From Pyrinomonadaceae bacterium (GTDB lineage: Bacteria; Acidobacteriota; Blastocatellia; Pyrinomonadales; Pyrinomonadaceae), in assembly GCA_026129865.1 (NCBI GenBank), contig JAHCHG010000008.1, positions 124,001 through 188,000 of the forward strand: DNA of 64,000 nucleotides, in the 5' to 3' direction. The notes under the pieces are model-generated. The model did not search any database. It was given only the letters and a program-made list of their open reading frames with translations, and was not told where the DNA came from. The position numbers and the translations under genes are program-made. Shown here piece by piece: positions 35,431 to 43,099 of this stretch. Every line of letters starts with the position of its first letter. The stretch's first letter is position 1.

Positions 35431-36033
35431 GTGAGAAAAGAAAAGCGAATCGACATCAAATTTTCCGCGAAGAAGCTGGAAACGTCCGACGCCGCGCTGG
35501 TCAAAAAATGCAGGCGCGGCGATGAAATTTCATGGAACGCGCTGGTCGACCGTTACCAGCGTTTGATCTTTGCCGTGCCGCGCCGAGCCGGATTGTCCGA
35601 AGCCCAGTCGGCGGACATTTTGCAGGAAGTGTTCTTGACGCTGTTTGAAAAATTGGACGAAATAGAACGACCGGAAAAGATCCGCTCGTGGCTTGTAACG
35701 ACCGCAAAATTTAAAACCTGGAGCGCAGTCCGATCGGAAAAAGGGTTCTATTCGGCGCAAACCGAGGAAGAAATGGAGTTTGAAATGGCTAGTCTGAAAG
35801 ACGAAGCGCCGCTTGCTGAAGAAAAATTGATCGAACTCGAACAACAGCATCAAATAAGAACAGCACTCAAAGAACTGGAAGAACGCTGTCAAAAGATCCT
35901 TTCGATGATCTACCTGACAGAACCCTCGGCAAGCTATGCCGAGGTCGCCGAAGCGATCGGGGTCGGTTCGACCAGTATCAGTCCGCTGCGCGCCAGGTGT
36001 TTGAAGAAGCTTGAAAAGATTCTTACGTCGTAA
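35431..36033 (+). CDS. ECF-like sigma-70 family RNA polymerase sigma factor
   Basis: This 200-residue protein starts at a GTG four bases after the flavoprotein gene. Region 2 lies at about residues 22-100 (LVKKCRRGDEISWNALVDRYQRLIF, with the core-binding DILQEVFLTLFEKLD). Region 4 lies at about 145-195, with a helix-turn-helix (SASYAEVAEAIGVGSTSISPLRARCLKKL). There is no region 3 and no fused anti-sigma domain. The next three genes run in the same direction at 70-100 base spacing: a small unknown, a TPR-CHAT protein and a subtilase. It probably controls them. Confidence 0.87.
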   Translation: MRKEKRIDIKFSAKKLETSDAALVKKCRRGDEISWNALVDRYQRLIFAVPRRAGLSEAQSADILQEVFLTLFEKLDEIERPEKIRSWLVTTAKFKTWSAVRSEKGFYSAQTEEEMEFEMASLKDEAPLAEEKLIELEQQHQIRTALKELEERCQKILSMIYLTEPSASYAEVAEAIGVGSTSISPLRARCLKKLEKILTS

Positions 36034-36103
36034 CAAGCAAAAAAATAAACATCTGTCTTTATTCGGAAAAAAGCCGCACTGTAAGATGTGAGGAAACGCG
36101 ACG

Positions 36104-36592
36104 ATGAGTTTGATGAAGAAAAATAACCAAAACGCGGTCGAACGAATAATCAATCTGATGCAGGCGGATGATTCCGTAGACGCGCCGAATGATGCGATCC
36201 TTTGGTCGAAGAATATTTTCAAAACACGTGCGGTCGGAGAAAATCGATCGATGGTTGAGACAATAAAAGCTGTCTTAAAGATCGATCTGATGCCGGGCAA
36301 ACCGGCATTCGGGGAACGTTCCGGTTCTTCCGGCGCGGCGCGGCAGATGCTTTTTGACGCAGGCGACAGCTCGATCGATCTGCGGATAAAGCCGACCGGG
36401 AAAGGCTTCGAGCTCCGCGGACAGATCCTCGGAGACGGATTTGCGAACGCGAAAGTGTTCCTTGGTGAATTTGAAACAATATCGAACGATCAAAGCGAGT
36501 TTCGCGTGGAAAACGTTCCGTCCGGAAAATATAACTTGATCATAAAGGGCGACCGAACCGTAGAGATCAGCGGTTTGCTGCTTAAAACATAA
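36104..36592 (+). CDS. small cytoplasmic protein with beta-sandwich (carboxypeptidase-regulatory-like) C-terminus
   Basis: The protein has 162 residues, no signal peptide and no membrane helix. Residues 1-60 are helical and charged (AVERIINLMQADD). Residues about 90-162 look like a small beta-sandwich of the carboxypeptidase-regulatory/transthyretin kind (FELRGQILGDGFANAKVFLG, then FRVENVPSGKYNLII). It sits between the sigma factor and the TPR-CHAT gene. By position it could be an anti-sigma or adaptor protein, but it lacks a recognisable anti-sigma zinc motif. I cannot assign a function. Confidence 0.65.
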   Translation: MSLMKKNNQNAVERIINLMQADDSVDAPNDAILWSKNIFKTRAVGENRSMVETIKAVLKIDLMPGKPAFGERSGSSGAARQMLFDAGDSSIDLRIKPTGKGFELRGQILGDGFANAKVFLGEFETISNDQSEFRVENVPSGKYNLIIKGDRTVEISGLLLKT

Positions 36593-36691
36593 GAAAAAAA
36601 CCGAATTTCCAAAAAGTTGATCGGCAAACGAACGCGGCGAAAGAATGTTAAGGCTTTTCGGCGCGTTTGTTATTTATTAGAATATCCGCAA

Positions 36692-39499
36692 ATGAACCGC
36701 CGCCGCCTCGCTAAAAAGCTTATCGAATCCGACCGCGCGTCCGACCGCGACAAACTGCTTCGCACAAACGCCTCGATTGCCGATGAAAAGCTCGCTATTT
36801 TACTAAAGGATCATTGCTATCAAACCTGGACGAGCCGTCCGAAAGAAGCGCAAAACGCTGCAAAAGCGTCGCGTTCTCTTTTGAAATTCAATCCTGCGCC
36901 GCTAGTTCGCGCTTTCGATTTTTGGATCAGAGGAATTGCCGATCTCACCCGCGGACGGCTTGAATCGACGATCAAAAATCTCGATCTTGCCGGTCGGGAA
37001 TTTCTAAACGCGGAAAAGGAACATGAAGCCGCGAACACGCAGGTCGCAAAGATTTATGCGCTCGCAATGTTAGGAAAATACGATCAAGCGATCGACTGCG
37101 GCGAAAATTCGCTCAAGATATTTAAGGATCTTGGCGATGAGCTTGCCGCAGGAAAGGTGGAAAAAAATCTCGGCAATCTCGCCGCCCGCCGCGGCGATGA
37201 GCTGCGGGCGGTCGATCATTATTTGTCCGCAAGAGAAAGATTCCTGAAACTTCGCGATCGGGAAGAATTGACGATGGCGGAAAACAGCCTCGCAAATTCC
37301 TACGCCGAGTTGAACGAATTTTTAACCGCTGAAAAGTTCTATTCCGATGCTTTGAAACGAGCGCGGCAGGATAACATGTCGGTAACGGAAGCCGAGATCG
37401 AAGCCAGTTTGGGAAATTTGGCGTTGTTTCGCGGCAAGCTGGATCAGGCGCTCAGCTATTTAGAATCTTCGCGCCGTAAATACGACAAGCTTGAAATGCC
37501 GCATCAAACGGCGATCGCCGAACTTGAGATCGCGGATATTTATCTAGAGTTAAATCTTGTTAACGAGGCGCTTGAGATCTACAGATCCGTTGTTCCCGAG
37601 CTCTGCAAATTGAAAATGCGGGCTGAAGAAGCGCGTGCGAGGACAAATTTCGGGAAATCTTTGATCGCGATCGAAGATTCGAAAAATGCCCGTCGACAGC
37701 TTCGGCGATCCGTCCGGTTGTACCGAGCGGAAAACAACATTGCCGGCGCGGCATCGGCGACCTTTGCGCAAGCTTCGCTGGAACTTTCTTCGGGGAAGTT
37801 TGAAAAAGCCCTGCGTGCAATTCGTTCGATCGACAAAGAAAACGATAATTTGACCGACGAAAGACTGAAACTGCGTTTGGATCTTCTGGAAGCGCAGGTT
37901 CTTTCAGCTTTGCGGCGCTTTGAGGAAGCGCGTAACTTGCTACGGGAAGTTATTGCCGCTGCAGAAAAGCACGAGCAGCATTCGGTTCTGCTTCGCGCAT
38001 TTACATTGACCGGAATGCTGGATCTTGAAGCGAACGATCTGACGGCGGCGTCGCAAAAATTTAAAAAGGCGATCTCGATCGTTGAAAAAATGCGTGCTCC
38101 GCTGCCCGCGGAGGAATTTCGGATGGCGTTTTTGTCCGATAAACTCGCGCCGTTCGAAAATCTTGCACGCGTTCTAATCGCTCAGAATAAATATGAAGAC
38201 GCGTTTCAAACTGTTGAAACGGCTAGGTCGCGATCGTTGTTTGAAAATCTGGATGAACTGCATGCCGATAAAGAATTCAGCGCTGATGAAAGCGCGCTTA
38301 ACGACGAACTGACAAAACTTCGCGAAGAATTGAACTGGTTTTACAGCCGTTATGACCGCGCATCGGGCGATGATGCAGGTAAATTGCTTGCCGAAGCCGC
38401 GAAACGCGAAACCGCGGTCGCGGCATTGAGCCGTCGAATCGAAAGCACGCATGTTCGGCGCGGGCGCGGCGGACAAACGGCTGGATTTTCATTAAAAAAA
38501 CTCAAACAGCAGTTGGGAAACGACAAAACGCTGGTCGAATTTTGCATTTTTGACGGCAAGATCTGTGCATTCCTTGTGTCGTCGACGGGCGTGAAATTTG
38601 TCGAAGACCTGTCGCCGGAGTCTGCGGTCGGACCGATTCTTGAAGATCTTAGGTTTCAATTCGGCGCGCTTCGTTTTGGAACGGCAGCGGTCGCGAAATT
38701 TCTTCCCGAACTGAAAAAAAGAGCCGATAAATATTTGGAATTACTTCACCAAAAGTTGATCGCACCGCTCGGGAAACTGAACGGAAGTAATAAATTGATC
38801 ATCGTTCCGGCAGGCGTGCTGCATTATGTGCCTTTTCACGCGCTTCGTTCGGACGGCAGATATCTGATCGAAGATCTGGAAATAAATTACGCGCCGAGCG
38901 CAGGCGTGTGGCAGAAACTGGATTCGAAAAGCTCTGCAAAAACCTCGAACGCGCTTTTACTGGGATTTGCGGATGACGATATTCCGCTTGTCGAAGCCGA
39001 AGTGCGGTCGCTCGAAGATCAATTTGCAAAATCAAAGGTATTGTTCGGGGAAACGGCGACATTTGAAAATTTTCAGCGCTGGTCTCCGCATTTCGATATA
39101 ATTCACGTAGCGTGCCACGGGCAATTTCGAGCTGATAATCCGCTTTTTTCCAGTCTTCATCTCGCTGACGGATATATCACCGTCCGGGATGTTTGTGCAG
39201 CGGACATTCGCGCAGATCTCGTGACCTTAAGCGCCTGCGAAACAGGTTTAAGTTCGGTTTTTTCCGGCGAAGAAATACTCGGACTCGCCCGCGGTTTTAT
39301 TTCTGCCGGGGCGAGTTCGCTCGTGTTGAGTCTGTGGGCGGTGAACGACGAAATGACCGCTGCGCTGATGAAGGAGTTTTACACTTGTCTGCAACGCGGC
39401 GCTTCCGTACCTGCATCTTTAAGACACGCGCAGAAAAATTTCATTGATAAAGAAGTCCATCCATATTTCTGGGCACCGTTTTCAGCGGTCGGAAGATGA
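36692..39499 (+). CDS. TPR-CHAT protein (caspase-like cysteine peptidase with tetratricopeptide repeats)
   Basis: The ATG at 36692 gives 935 residues; the upstream frame is basic and non-homologous. Residues about 60-560 are about ten TPR-like helical hairpins (AKIYALAMLGKYDQAIDCGENS, ASLGNLALFRGKLDQALSYL). A coiled segment follows. Residues about 650-935 are a CHAT domain of the caspase/separase clan. The catalytic pair is visible: His809 in HVACHGQF and Cys849 in TLSACETGLSS, with GFISAGASSLVLSLW after it. In other bacteria TPR-CHAT proteases are activated by a partner and cut a specific target. No CRISPR or gasdermin gene lies nearby. The adjacent subtilase is the natural candidate partner. 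Confidence 0.9.
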   Translation: MNRRRLAKKLIESDRASDRDKLLRTNASIADEKLAILLKDHCYQTWTSRPKEAQNAAKASRSLLKFNPAPLVRAFDFWIRGIADLTRGRLESTIKNLDLAGREFLNAEKEHEAANTQVAKIYALAMLGKYDQAIDCGENSLKIFKDLGDELAAGKVEKNLGNLAARRGDELRAVDHYLSARERFLKLRDREELTMAENSLANSYAELNEFLTAEKFYSDALKRARQDNMSVTEAEIEASLGNLALFRGKLDQALSYLESSRRKYDKLEMPHQTAIAELEIADIYLELNLVNEALEIYRSVVPELCKLKMRAEEARARTNFGKSLIAIEDSKNARRQLRRSVRLYRAENNIAGAASATFAQASLELSSGKFEKALRAIRSIDKENDNLTDERLKLRLDLLEAQVLSALRRFEEARNLLREVIAAAEKHEQHSVLLRAFTLTGMLDLEANDLTAASQKFKKAISIVEKMRAPLPAEEFRMAFLSDKLAPFENLARVLIAQNKYEDAFQTVETARSRSLFENLDELHADKEFSADESALNDELTKLREELNWFYSRYDRASGDDAGKLLAEAAKRETAVAALSRRIESTHVRRGRGGQTAGFSLKKLKQQLGNDKTLVEFCIFDGKICAFLVSSTGVKFVEDLSPESAVGPILEDLRFQFGALRFGTAAVAKFLPELKKRADKYLELLHQKLIAPLGKLNGSNKLIIVPAGVLHYVPFHALRSDGRYLIEDLEINYAPSAGVWQKLDSKSSAKTSNALLLGFADDDIPLVEAEVRSLEDQFAKSKVLFGETATFENFQRWSPHFDIIHVACHGQFRADNPLFSSLHLADGYITVRDVCAADIRADLVTLSACETGLSSVFSGEEILGLARGFISAGASSLVLSLWAVNDEMTAALMKEFYTCLQRGASVPASLRHAQKNFIDKEVHPYFWAPFSAVGR

Positions 39500-39590
39500 A
39501 TTATTTTTTTGAAGTTGTCTTTTCTTCAAAATTATCCGCACTGTGCAAACGGGAACAAAGTTTTAAAAGACTCGCACGGACCAGATCAAG

Positions 39591-40997
39591 ATGAGAAGTT
39601 TAATCAGAAAAATAACTTTTACCGCGGCTATGATACTGGCGGTGTTTTGCGTCTTTGGCGAGGCACAGGTCGCCGGTCCTCCGGTTTGCGAAGCGGTTCC
39701 GGGACAGATATTCATCGATCTCGTTAATCAATCCGATCTGACGGCAGTTGCGTCGCAATACGGACTCGCACAAACGCCGATAGATTCGGTCGGAACTCCG
39801 CCGACGTACCGTATGCAGATCACAAACGGTCAAACGCCGTGTCAGGTCGCCGACGCCATGGCTGGCGATGCGCGCATTTTGCAGCGCGATGTAAACCGCA
39901 AGCTGAAGATGGTCGAAAAACAGGACGAGCCGTGGACGATCGGTCGTTCATGGTCGATCGGACGTTCGTGGTCGATCGGCGGCAGCGTGAAAGGTTTTAA
40001 TTCTCAATGGTTTCCGCATCGCATAGACCTCGATGCAGCACACGAAATTTCAAAAGGCGACGATATTATCATTGCGATCCTGGATACCGGGATCGATCTG
40101 AATCATCCGGCATTTGCGGGAAGGCTCGTTCCCGGCTGGGATTTTGTCGGGAACGACAACGACCCGAGCGAAGAAGGCGCGGTTTGGGCAAACGCTGCTT
40201 TCGGGCACGGAACACACGTTGCCGGAATCGCAGCGCTGACCGCACCGAACGCGAAAATAATGCCGATCAGAGTTTTAGATGCGGACGGCGTCGGCGATCT
40301 CTGGCGGTTAAAGGACGCGCTCATCTGGGCGGCAAATAACGGAGCAACGATCGCAAATTTGAGCCTTGGTTATCCTGAAAATTTCGATACCGGAAGCAAC
40401 ACATTTCTGCACGACCTATTTAACGGGTGCGACGATGTGGTGATTCCGGGTGAACAAGTTTTTCCCGAATTTAACGATAACCGTCTGCTGATAGTTGCCG
40501 GTGCAGGAAACGGAGGTCAGATCGGCGACGGTTCGGCAAGGATCTTTCCGGCGGCTGAACGCGGCGCGACCGCGGCAGACGATAACGGTATTGATGACAA
40601 CTTAATCAGCGTCGGTGCAAGCACACGATATGACAATCTTGCTTCCTTTTCGACGATGGCGCATGTCGTTAACCGGCGCGCCGACCGTTGGGTAAGAACC
40701 GTCGCGCCGGGCGAAGAGATCGTAAGTGCAATTCCCGGCGGACGTTATGGAATGTGGTCGGGAACGTCAATGTCTGCTCCGATCGTTTCCGGGATCGCCG
40801 CGCTTGTCAAAAAACGGTTTCCTTTGCTGACGCTGGAAGAGATCGTCGACCGAATTGAAGAAAGCGGTTACGAGTGGGATTGCACCGTCCAATCGCGCGG
40901 AACGAGAATGGAAACCGCACGCGTTAATGCGGCGTGCGCACTCGCTCCGGACTATAATGTTTGCGTCCCGCCGCCCCGGCGCAGCTGCCCGGAATAA
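39591..40997 (+). CDS. secreted subtilisin-like serine protease (S8 family)
   Basis: The 468-residue protein has a signal peptide (IRKITFTAAMILAVFCVFGEAQ, positions 5-26). A short prodomain-like region lies at about residues 30-110. The S8 catalytic domain has Asp165 in AILDTGIDLNHP, His206 in GHGTHVAGIA and Ser393 in GTSMSAPIVSGIAAL. Between prodomain and catalytic domain lies a threefold WSIGRS repeat. Cysteines near the C-terminus may form disulfides. It ends the sigma/CHAT cluster, 92 bases after the CHAT gene, and is followed by a terminator. It is exported, whereas the CHAT protein is cytoplasmic. Confidence 0.92.
   Translation: MRSLIRKITFTAAMILAVFCVFGEAQVAGPPVCEAVPGQIFIDLVNQSDLTAVASQYGLAQTPIDSVGTPPTYRMQITNGQTPCQVADAMAGDARILQRDVNRKLKMVEKQDEPWTIGRSWSIGRSWSIGGSVKGFNSQWFPHRIDLDAAHEISKGDDIIIAILDTGIDLNHPAFAGRLVPGWDFVGNDNDPSEEGAVWANAAFGHGTHVAGIAALTAPNAKIMPIRVLDADGVGDLWRLKDALIWAANNGATIANLSLGYPENFDTGSNTFLHDLFNGCDDVVIPGEQVFPEFNDNRLLIVAGAGNGGQIGDGSARIFPAAERGATAADDNGIDDNLISVGASTRYDNLASFSTMAHVVNRRADRWVRTVAPGEEIVSAIPGGRYGMWSGTSMSAPIVSGIAALVKKRFPLLTLEEIVDRIEESGYEWDCTVQSRGTRMETARVNAACALAPDYNVCVPPPRRSCPE
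39933..39986 (+). repeat. threefold 18-bp coding repeat (WSIGRS) in the subtilase linker
   Basis: Three 18-base units encode WTIGRS, WSIGRS and WSIGGS in a row, at the junction of prodomain and catalytic domain (residues about 115-132). The units differ by several bases, so the motif appears maintained at protein level. Confidence 0.8.
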
Positions 40998-41019
40998 ATT
41001 CTGCTCGAGTCCTTTTATG

Positions 41020-41046
41020 AGACCGGAGAAGTTTGCCGGTCTTTTT
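41020..41046 (+). terminator. intrinsic terminator after the subtilase gene
   Basis: AGACCGG (41020-41026) pairs with CCGGTCT (41036-41042) around a 9-base loop, followed by a T-run through 41046. It closes the sigma/CHAT/subtilase transcription unit. Confidence 0.85.
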
Positions 41047-41179
41047 CAATTTTAAATTTCCGGTTCAATCGTCTTTTTATGCCCGGTTTGCGCACTGTGT
41101 ATCTGAACAGCCGTAATTTGGAGCGATTTCAGAGAAACGGAAGACTAAAACGCTTATAGCAAGCATGGGAGTAAATGTT

Positions 41180-43099
41180 ATGAAACAACAAAAGAAATTA
41201 AAACGGAGCAGATTAGTAAATCTGGCGATAGTTCTATTCGCCATAGGATTTTTATCGATTCTTCCTGTTTCGATGGTTATTCAAGCCAGCGAGATCGGAA
41301 AAGACAGCGGCGAAACATCAAACGGCGTAGGCGGCACACCGACACCGACAGCTTCGCCGACAGCGAGCCCGACCGGCAGTCCGAGTCCGTCGCCATCGGC
41401 AAGTCCGACCGGAAGTCCGAGCCCGAGCCCGTCTCCGACCGGCAGTCCGAGCCCGAGCCCGTCTCCGACCGGCAGTCCGAGTCCGAGCCCGTCTCCGACC
41501 GGAAGTCCGAGCCCGAGCCCGAGTCCTAGTCCTTCGCCATCACCTGGCGGCGGCGGAAACATCTTTGCCGCGCTGACCGGACCGACGATAAACGGAATCA
41601 TGCCGCGCGGATACGCGGAATACGAAATTCACAGCAGCCGCACGGAGATCGAGTCGCGAATAAGCCAGGTAAATCTTCCTTCCGGAACGAACCTGGCGGC
41701 GTTTATCAACAATGTACAGGTTGGCGTGCTAAACCTTGAGAGCGACGGGGAAGGAAGGCTTCGCCTGCGCAGCGACCGGGGCGACAACGTTCCCGTCATT
41801 ACAGGCGGCGAGTTATTCGAACTAAAACATAACGGCAATGTGGTGCTTTCCGGCAGATTCATTTCAGGAAATCCGAGCCCGACGCCGACTCCTTCGGGAA
41901 GTCCGAGTCCGAGTCCCAGCCCGACCCCGAGTCAAAGCCGGTATTTTGAGTCGCATCTGACCGGCGCGGTTTCCGGCGCGCGCGGCGAGGTAAAGGTGTT
42001 TATAAATGAAACCGAAACGGCTGCGCTGTTCACGGCGGAATTTCACAATCTTTCAAGCGCGCAGACATTTGCCCGGATCGATGCAAATCTCGGCGATGTT
42101 GTGCTTATACATAACTTCGGCGCGATCGGCGGAACTAACGGAAACCTGCCGAATGCGACGGTCGCATTGTCGCCCGCGCATATTCAGCAGCTAAGAGCCG
42201 GTTTATGGACCGCAACGATCGGAACCGTAAATAATCCGGGCGGCGAGGTGCTCGGTCGATTGAGCCAGCATTCGGATCTATCGGATTTTGACGGCGACGG
42301 AAGCAACGATTTCGCAGTTTTTCGACCGTCAACGGGAACCTGGTACGCGCAAAACAGTCAGGGGTTTTCCGCACAAGTTTTCGGCAGCGCGAACGATAAA
42401 GTCGTTTCGGCAGATTATGACGGCGACGGAAAGACCGACACGGCAATTTTCAGAGATTCCAACGGCAGCGGAGTTTGGCAGATCAGGCATAGTTCCGACG
42501 GCGGAATTACGTCAACCGCGTTCGGATTCGGAACTGACATTCCGGTTCGCGGCGATTTTGACGGAGACAGTTTGAACGACATTGCGGTATTCCGCCCGTC
42601 GACCGGTGTCTGGTATGTCAAAAAGAGCAACAACGCGGGCTTTTTGATCGTCCGTTTCGGGCTCAACGGCGATATACCGATTCCCGCCGATTTTGACGGC
42701 GACGGAAAGGTAGATATCGCAGTCTTCAGACCGAGCGACGGGAACTGGTATTGGCTCAACAGCAGCAACGGGCAATTTGTCGCGGCTCATTTTGGAGCCA
42801 ACGGCGATGTTCCGATCGGAGGCGATTTCGACGGCGACGGCAAAGCTGATATGAGCGTTTACCGACCGTCGACAGGCGTCTGGTACGCGTTTAGAAGTTC
42901 GGACAGCGGATACGACATCCGCAGCTTCGGACTTTCGGACGATGTTCCTGTGGCGGGAAATTACGATTCGGACGACATTACCGACATCGCTGTTTTCCGA
43001 CCGTCGACGGGAATCTGGTACATTTGGCGAAGTGTCGACAACACTTTTGAATATCGTCAGTTCGGCACCACCGGCGACATCCCGGCAATTTCCCGATAA
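41180..43099 (+). CDS. secreted CHRD-domain and FG-GAP-repeat protein with Pro/Ser linkers
   Basis: The ATG at 41180 was chosen because a GGGAG ribosome-binding site lies just upstream; an ATG five codons earlier overlaps that site. The protein has 639 residues. A signal or anchor helix (LVNLAIVLFAIGFLSILPVS) is followed by a long Pro/Ser/Thr linker, a first beta domain, a second short PSPSP linker, and a CHRD-type domain (RYFESHLTGAVSGARGEV to NNPGGEVLGRL). Six FG-GAP repeats close the protein. CHRD domains occur in chordin and many bacterial surface proteins. The repeats match those in the sugar dehydrogenase at 3653. It is probably a cell-surface or matrix protein. Confidence 0.82.
   Translation: MKQQKKLKRSRLVNLAIVLFAIGFLSILPVSMVIQASEIGKDSGETSNGVGGTPTPTASPTASPTGSPSPSPSASPTGSPSPSPSPTGSPSPSPSPTGSPSPSPSPTGSPSPSPSPSPSPSPGGGGNIFAALTGPTINGIMPRGYAEYEIHSSRTEIESRISQVNLPSGTNLAAFINNVQVGVLNLESDGEGRLRLRSDRGDNVPVITGGELFELKHNGNVVLSGRFISGNPSPTPTPSGSPSPSPSPTPSQSRYFESHLTGAVSGARGEVKVFINETETAALFTAEFHNLSSAQTFARIDANLGDVVLIHNFGAIGGTNGNLPNATVALSPAHIQQLRAGLWTATIGTVNNPGGEVLGRLSQHSDLSDFDGDGSNDFAVFRPSTGTWYAQNSQGFSAQVFGSANDKVVSADYDGDGKTDTAIFRDSNGSGVWQIRHSSDGGITSTAFGFGTDIPVRGDFDGDSLNDIAVFRPSTGVWYVKKSNNAGFLIVRFGLNGDIPIPADFDGDGKVDIAVFRPSDGNWYWLNSSNGQFVAAHFGANGDVPIGGDFDGDGKADMSVYRPSTGVWYAFRSSDSGYDIRSFGLSDDVPVAGNYDSDDITDIAVFRPSTGIWYIWRSVDNTFEYRQFGTTGDIPAISR
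41332..41550 (+). repeat. low-complexity Pro/Ser/Thr coding repeat with a 30-bp unit
   Basis: The stretch encodes TPTASPTASPTGSPSPSPS-type linker. From about 41409 a 30-base unit (10 residues, TGSPSPSPSP) recurs nearly identically. Such GC-rich tracts vary in length by slippage. It separates the export signal from the first folded domain. Confidence 0.85.
42284..43096 (+). repeat. six FG-GAP/VCBS-like coding repeats
   Basis: Six units of 43-47 residues begin DFDGDGSNDFAVFRPSTGTW and end at the stop codon. Consensus and period match the repeats at 3668-4477. The second unit carries a two-residue insertion. Confidence 0.9.

Follow-up and report, generated by a model that had tools for sequence, protein, structure and literature searches.

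The anti-sigma factor ChrR combines a zinc anti-sigma (ZAS) domain with a C-terminal beta-domain. In type III-E CRISPR (clustered regularly interspaced short palindromic repeats) systems, the TPR-CHAT protease Csx29 cleaves Csx30, which inhibits the extracytoplasmic function (ECF) sigma factor CASP-sigma (PMC10028731). In another CRISPR system, the protease CalpL cleaves the anti-sigma factor CalpT (PMC11417357). A review of the ECF54 group describes CHAT, subtilase and carboxypeptidase genes as neighbours and proposes proteolysis as the means of control, in a group said to have no anti-sigma factor (PMC8999054). Here we analysed a 64,000-nucleotide stretch of a Pyrinomonadaceae genome (assembly GCA_026129865.1, contig JAHCHG010000008.1, positions 124,001 to 188,000; hereafter the window), the plus strand of which carries a row of genes encoding an ECF sigma factor, a 162-residue protein (hereafter the linker), a TPR-CHAT caspase-like protease, an S8 subtilase and a CHRD/FG-GAP protein, as determined from open reading frame calls and family searches. 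On sequence grounds the linker is a member of a soluble anti-sigma family, and we consider it moderately probable that the cluster constitutes a proteolysis-gated ECF sigma switch. Since the ECF54 context has already been described, the association of sigma factor, CHAT and subtilase genes is known in outline; the present analysis adds the identity of the linker, its loss of zinc ligands in the window clade, a promoter whose specificity varies with the sigma subtype, a predicted regulon and the occurrence of the cluster in two phyla. No description of the whole circuit was found in the literature searched, which lay largely outside subscription journals.

The window cluster resembles the Craspase of type III-E CRISPR systems in that a TPR-CHAT protease with intact catalytic His and Cys residues lies beside a putative inhibitor and an ECF sigma factor, and the cleavage of a sigma inhibitor by Csx29 is the nearest parallel in function, one that an earlier prediction for this locus did not consider. 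It differs in the absence of a Cas7-11/RAMP gene and in having, in addition, a subtilase that is secreted and a predicted regulon made up mostly of secreted proteins. The best NCBIfam match of the CHAT region is the Csx29 model NF041237, but its score of 78 bits is below the cut-off of 300, and no PF03787 RAMP/Cas7-like gene is present in the window's genome, which is 96% complete. Membership of the type III-E Craspase systems was rejected on this score and on the missing Cas7-11/gRAMP effector, which bears out the statement of that earlier prediction (hereafter the original prediction) that no type III-E CRISPR system is present. The CRISPR Lon-SAVED protease system CalpL/CalpT/CalpS shares with our cluster the triad of protease, anti-sigma factor and ECF sigma factor, but CalpL is an unrelated Lon protease and its signal is cyclic tetra-adenylate.

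The linker protein and conservation of its gene cluster

Homologues of the linker (36104..36592) are mostly 190-250 residues long, and 51 of 70 carry at the N-terminus the motif H-x3/4-C-x2-C, which is almost invariant in wider alignments. Most family members consist of an N-terminal ZAS domain followed by a prealbumin-like beta-sandwich, and the homologue at locus L045 passes the zf-HC2 cut-off. When the linker profile was compared with the PDB, the N-terminal part matched RsiW (4.4e-5), DdvA (6.1e-5), chain B of 3hug (1.8e-4) and ChrR (0.0026), and the C-terminal part matched prealbumin-like and NOMO domains; neither Csx30 nor any other CRISPR inhibitor protein was among the matches listed. 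The AlphaFold model of the L204 homologue (predicted local distance difference test score, pLDDT, of 89) shows four helices followed by a beta-sandwich, and for its first 56 residues ChrR ranked top among the solved chains compared (Z 8.4, root-mean-square deviation 2.9, 23% identity). Because middling Z values are common, this likeness counts as support only jointly with the profile matches. The profile matches and models thus contradict the view of the 162-residue protein as an orphan with no known fold partner and place it among the relatives of anti-sigma factors.

The AlphaFold model of the window linker itself (pLDDT 85) comprises two helices (residues 6-21 and 29-43) and the beta-sandwich, which is conserved in the family alignments. 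The protein and its nearest relatives have no H-x3/4-C-x2-C motif, making it a zinc-less homologue and not itself a ZAS protein; anti-sigma helices 3 and 4 appear to be retained, and the zinc-binding helices 1 and 2 have been lost, as in its closest relatives. The 70 bases 5' of its start codon are unable to encode the lost part. Because this zinc-binding part is missing, we infer, rather than conclude, that the window linker binds and inhibits the sigma factor. The zinc motif seems to be missing in several other lineages as well, as judged from the anti-sigma genes at L138, L139, L163 and L187, and its loss may therefore have been repeated.

The family shares with the ZAS factors ChrR, RsrA and RsiW an H-x3-C-x2-C domain encoded next to an ECF sigma gene, and the beta-domain of the linker recalls the C-terminal one of ChrR. 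In contrast to these factors, the linker is soluble, has a prealbumin-like sandwich instead of a cupin domain or a transmembrane segment, is tied to a CHAT protease and has lost its zinc ligands in the window clade. The loci of this family also match ECF54, by its described context, in combining CHAT, subtilase and carboxypeptidase-type genes. Whereas ECF54 is reported to have no anti-sigma factor, the carboxypeptidase-regulatory-like protein here is a member of an anti-sigma family (its homologues match CarboxypepD_reg below threshold), and a target promoter and regulon have been identified as candidates.

The 162-residue protein has homologues in 22 of 60 relatives, and the linker profile gave full-length matches through much of the Acidobacteriota, with the many short single-domain matches not counted. 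Among 70 linker-family loci, a sigma factor gene was located nearby on the same strand in 56, a CHAT gene in 58 and an S8 gene in 45; in the 39 loci flanked on each side by over 6 kb of contig, these counts were 35, 36 and 32. When 84,980 species genomes were searched with the CHAT alignment, 79 loci were returned, nearly all from Acidobacteriota together with several from Chloroflexota (Anaerolineae, Chloroflexales and Thermoflexales), and most have the same partners. A conserved neighbourhood of the four families therefore exists across Acidobacteriota and in Chloroflexota, in agreement with the original prediction. Two gene orders prevail, sigma-linker-CHAT-S8 (64 CHAT loci) and sigma-CHAT-linker-S8 (61 loci), in both of which sigma and S8 genes are mostly still present, and a few further permutations were seen. 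Over 88 loci, the four proteins show correlated pairwise distances (r 0.67-0.80, permutation maxima no higher than 0.16), which is supportive only, as the correlation includes the shared ancestry of the genomes.

The other products of the cluster are clear members of their families. The sigma factor gene (35431..36033, 200 residues) scores 80.7 bits with TIGR02937 against a cut-off of 42.9 and also exceeds those of Sigma70_r2 and Sigma70_r4; the closest solved homologue of its product is SigW. The CHAT domain (PF12770) of the TPR-CHAT protease (36692..39499, also matching TPR_12) scores 209.8 bits against a cut-off of 24. The protein has 935 residues when read from the ATG at 36692, and it is this start, equivalent to the initial Met of its relatives, and not the TTG of the longest frame at 36617, that fits the numbering of the His809/Cys849 pair, which is intact as originally described; in related loci the His is invariant in 62 of 62 and the Cys in 63 of 63. 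The subtilase (39591..40997, 468 residues) reaches 138 bits with Peptidase_S8 (PF00082, cut-off 21.8), and its intact Asp/His/Ser triad is invariant in 56 of 56 related loci. A signal-like hydrophobic N-terminus is present in the window subtilase and in 104 of 119 S8 homologues, and a scan for transmembrane and signal segments assigns the subtilase to the secreted proteins and the sigma factor, linker and CHAT protease to the cytosol; in this sequence scan of the locus families, no transmembrane segment was found in the latter three. The row continues with a gene for a secreted 644-residue CHRD/FG-GAP-repeat protein (41165..43099; PF07452 and PF13517), which lies beyond the four-gene block of the original prediction.

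The four genes of that block are indeed co-directional and lie where they had been placed, and an intrinsic-terminator-like hairpin (41019..41043, z -2.8) follows the subtilase gene on the same strand. A further terminator-like hairpin occupies the interval between the linker and CHAT genes (36627..36671, plus strand, z -3.7), and the same interval contains hairpins and T-runs in close relatives, including L033 and L119. Because these two hairpins separate genes, the block probably consists of several transcription units; a single operon, as first envisaged, is disfavoured by the hairpin at 36627-36671 and by the separate promoter boxes described below.

Candidate sigma promoter and predicted regulon

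Close relatives share an upstream motif, TGTCTTT-N16-CACTGT, usually with a G before the second box. It occurs in the window at three sites, all on the plus strand: 5' of the linker gene (36054..36082, TGTCTTT-N16-CACTGT), 5' of the subtilase gene (39516..39544) and 5' of the FG-GAP gene (41070..41098, CGTCTTT-N16-CACTGT). The looser pattern GTCTTT-N14-18-CACTGT has seven matches in the 4.4-Mb genome, three of which are these window sites. Over the wider family, a -35-type box, T[GA]T[AC]TTTT, was found upstream of 70 of 132 linker genes, where shuffled sequences lead one to expect 2.9, and likewise of 20 of 121 S8 genes (2.6 expected) and 7 of 10 FG genes (0.15 expected), as opposed to 0 of 126 CHAT genes and 0 of 116 sigma genes; Terriglobia, in which the second box is different, are included in these counts. 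Scans with standard sigma-70 and terminator patterns gave no excess.

In 60 genomes, TGTCTTT-N16-CACTGT gave 34 hits in the 8 genomes with a TGTCTTT-type cluster and 3 in the other 52, compared with 0 and 8, respectively, for the reversed-pattern control. The variant TGTATTT-N16-CACTGT gave 19 hits in 7 genomes of a sister subtype and 2 in the 8 TGTCTTT-type genomes. This C-to-A switch in the -35 box between sigma subtypes has a Fisher p-value of 7e-13 among genomes that are related and that we assigned to subtypes from the promoters of their own clusters. The window sigma factor is accordingly predicted to recognise TGTCTTT-N16-CACTGT, and from the common promoter motif it very probably controls the secreted protease gene, as had been anticipated. 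Candidate sigma-dependent promoters are present before 36104 and 39591, where they had been proposed, and not before 35431, in keeping with the sigma genes of the other loci; nor is the proposed sigma control of the CHAT gene supported, since the box precedes none of the CHAT genes.

The regulon is predicted to yield mainly secreted proteins. CHRD/FG-GAP homologues retain the promoter even where they are unlinked to the cluster, and an unlinked motif-bearing FG-GAP/CHRD protein recurs in genomes G015 and G032. Proteins of 1.6-1.7 thousand residues with DUF7948, Big_7, SBBP and FG-GAP domains are encoded behind the motif in the window's genome (G000) and in G023, and several further signal-peptide proteins are found among the unlinked motif-bearing genes. 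The G000 representative (L224:2-5225) is a secreted DUF7948/Big_7/CarboxypepD_reg/FG-GAP protein of 1710 residues, and its G023 homologue (L261) likewise follows the motif. A family 2 glycosyltransferase gene with the motif in two genera (L227:5578-6489 and L272:5410-6269; genomes G000 and G015) is the sole clearly non-secreted recurring target. Two further matches in G000, at C15:178906 and C15:263475, lie inside or antisense to genes and were discarded as likely chance occurrences.

Proposed proteolytic switch and its alternatives

In the switch that we propose, the cytosolic linker would hold the ECF sigma factor inactive, the TPR superhelix of the cytosolic CHAT protease would sense a signal, and the protease would then cleave or destabilise the linker. 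The freed sigma factor would transcribe from TGTCTTT-N16-CACTGT promoters, giving more anti-sigma protein as negative feedback, the subtilase, the CHRD/FG-GAP protein and a small number of products encoded elsewhere, most of them secreted, so that the net output would be an extracellular or surface protein programme. The suggestion that CHAT relieves the hold of the linker on the sigma factor comes from the analogy with Csx29/Csx30 and CalpL/CalpT, and both the cleavage and the signal that would trigger it are hypothetical. Since the CHAT gene is never found behind the sigma box and lies directly behind the sigma gene in the second gene order, CHAT stands with the regulators and appears to be a signalling component, so that its role is best read as that of a protease within such a circuit. 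This reading would turn an orphan group of genes into a testable circuit with a named inhibitor, protease, promoter and regulon, would propose an anti-sigma factor for a sigma context described without one, and would provide a promoter motif with which regulons could be predicted in many soil bacteria that have not been cultured.

Several points weigh against this proposal. Cleavage of the linker by CHAT is argued by analogy, and in the window clade the CHAT gene, preceded as it is by a terminator-like hairpin, may be expressed independently. With the zinc motif and two helices lost, the grip of the window linker on the sigma factor may be weaker or different, and Foldseek gave no matches below 0.001 for either the window or the L204 model. 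The motif boxes might conceivably represent an operator instead of -35 and -10 elements, and the significance values ignore the shared ancestry of the genomes.

A rather unlikely alternative is that a ligand or metal bound to the beta-sandwich gates the anti-sigma protein, as in a ChrR-like factor, and that CHAT cuts another substrate as a parallel output or tuner. This would suit the position of ChrR as the best structural match of L204 and the conserved, confidently modelled beta-domain of the linker; however, CHAT is the most constant neighbour of the linker and its genes are devoid of the sigma box, which argues for a signalling part over an induced output. The same absence of the box makes it improbable that TPR-CHAT is a triggered executioner in cell death or anti-phage defence that the sigma factor arms. 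CHAT proteases do act in type III-E CRISPR, and the top NCBIfam match is Csx29, but neither a defence family nor a RAMP/Cas7-like gene accompanies the protease here, and the predicted regulon consists mostly of secreted proteins. In PADLOC-DB we found no specific defence family: CHAT gave no more than weak, generic hits (BovA at 7e-7, and TPR), the subtilase matched a generic model, and the sigma factor and the linker had no match at all. CHAT therefore looks more like a signalling protease than like an executioner whose gene is induced, and of the protease cascade for signalling, defence or cell death first suggested, the conserved unit and the sigma-controlled secreted protease are supported, whereas induction of CHAT and a role in death or defence are not. 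Direct control of the sigma factor by proteolysis without an anti-sigma factor, as proposed for ECF54, appears highly improbable. The review (PMC8999054) lists subtilase, CHAT and carboxypeptidase without an anti-sigma factor, and the window linker does lack zinc ligands, but if the 'carboxypeptidase' corresponds to the linker family it has a ZAS domain in most members, and most loci encode a subtilase that, judging from its signal-like segment, is secreted.

Returning to the proteolysis-gated switch, we suggest tentatively that the cluster is a chromosomal, CRISPR-free TPR-CHAT/anti-sigma/ECF sigma module, common in Acidobacteriota and Chloroflexota and of the kind from which the signalling arm of Craspase was recruited, in which the protease would cut the anti-sigma protein on a cellular signal, possibly a peptide, and so turn on the secreted proteins. 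If CHAT cleaves the anti-sigma protein, bacterial caspase-like proteases would gain a general signalling role outside CRISPR, and type III-E CASP would look like an older housekeeping switch that has come under the control of CRISPR.

Neighbouring genes and related loci

Upstream of the sigma gene, a nitroreductase gene on the plus strand (34749..35426, PF00881, 81.7 bits) ends 4 bases 5' of the sigma start, and the two may be co-transcribed. A nitroreductase gene also adjoins the sigma gene in L032 and L034, and the linkage is thus weak and restricted to a clade. Some Blastocatellia clusters (L055:9522-10838, L056:7642-8871 and L145:7526-9076) have an additional gene between the sigma and anti-sigma genes, with DUF5666 in the additional proteins of L056 and L145. 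In Terriglobia-type loci, an SBP_bac_5 peptide-binding gene is located upstream of the sigma gene in 40 of 61, often together with a permease gene (BPD_transp_1), as parts of a peptide ABC importer, and an HD_5 gene follows the subtilase gene in 21 of 61; L147:5164-15697 is an example among about 40 similar loci. The neighbouring peptide importer hints, speculatively, at extracellular proteolysis coupled with peptide uptake or sensing.

Linker-CHAT fusions suggested by long open frames were rejected in L100, where the frame crosses an assembly gap (a run of X), and in L109, where the apparent frame 5' of the linker is an artefact of high GC content. The anti-sigma profile also aligns with residues 1-48, at the N-terminus, of chain B of PDB entry 8rot (991 residues, 'CHAT domain-containing protein'; E 0.011), which may be a natural fusion of ZAS and CHAT domains. 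The window's genome has three further TPR-CHAT genes (L058:9951-14581, L059:9116-13287 and L060:6074-10407), each of which likewise follows a gene encoding about 190 residues; that of L058 is sigma-like (hhalign 85%) and is followed by a membrane protein gene, and in L060 a protein with a single transmembrane segment and a ZAS-like EHLVHCSNC motif is encoded in between. The combination of TPR-CHAT with sigma and anti-sigma proteins may thus be a recurring theme.
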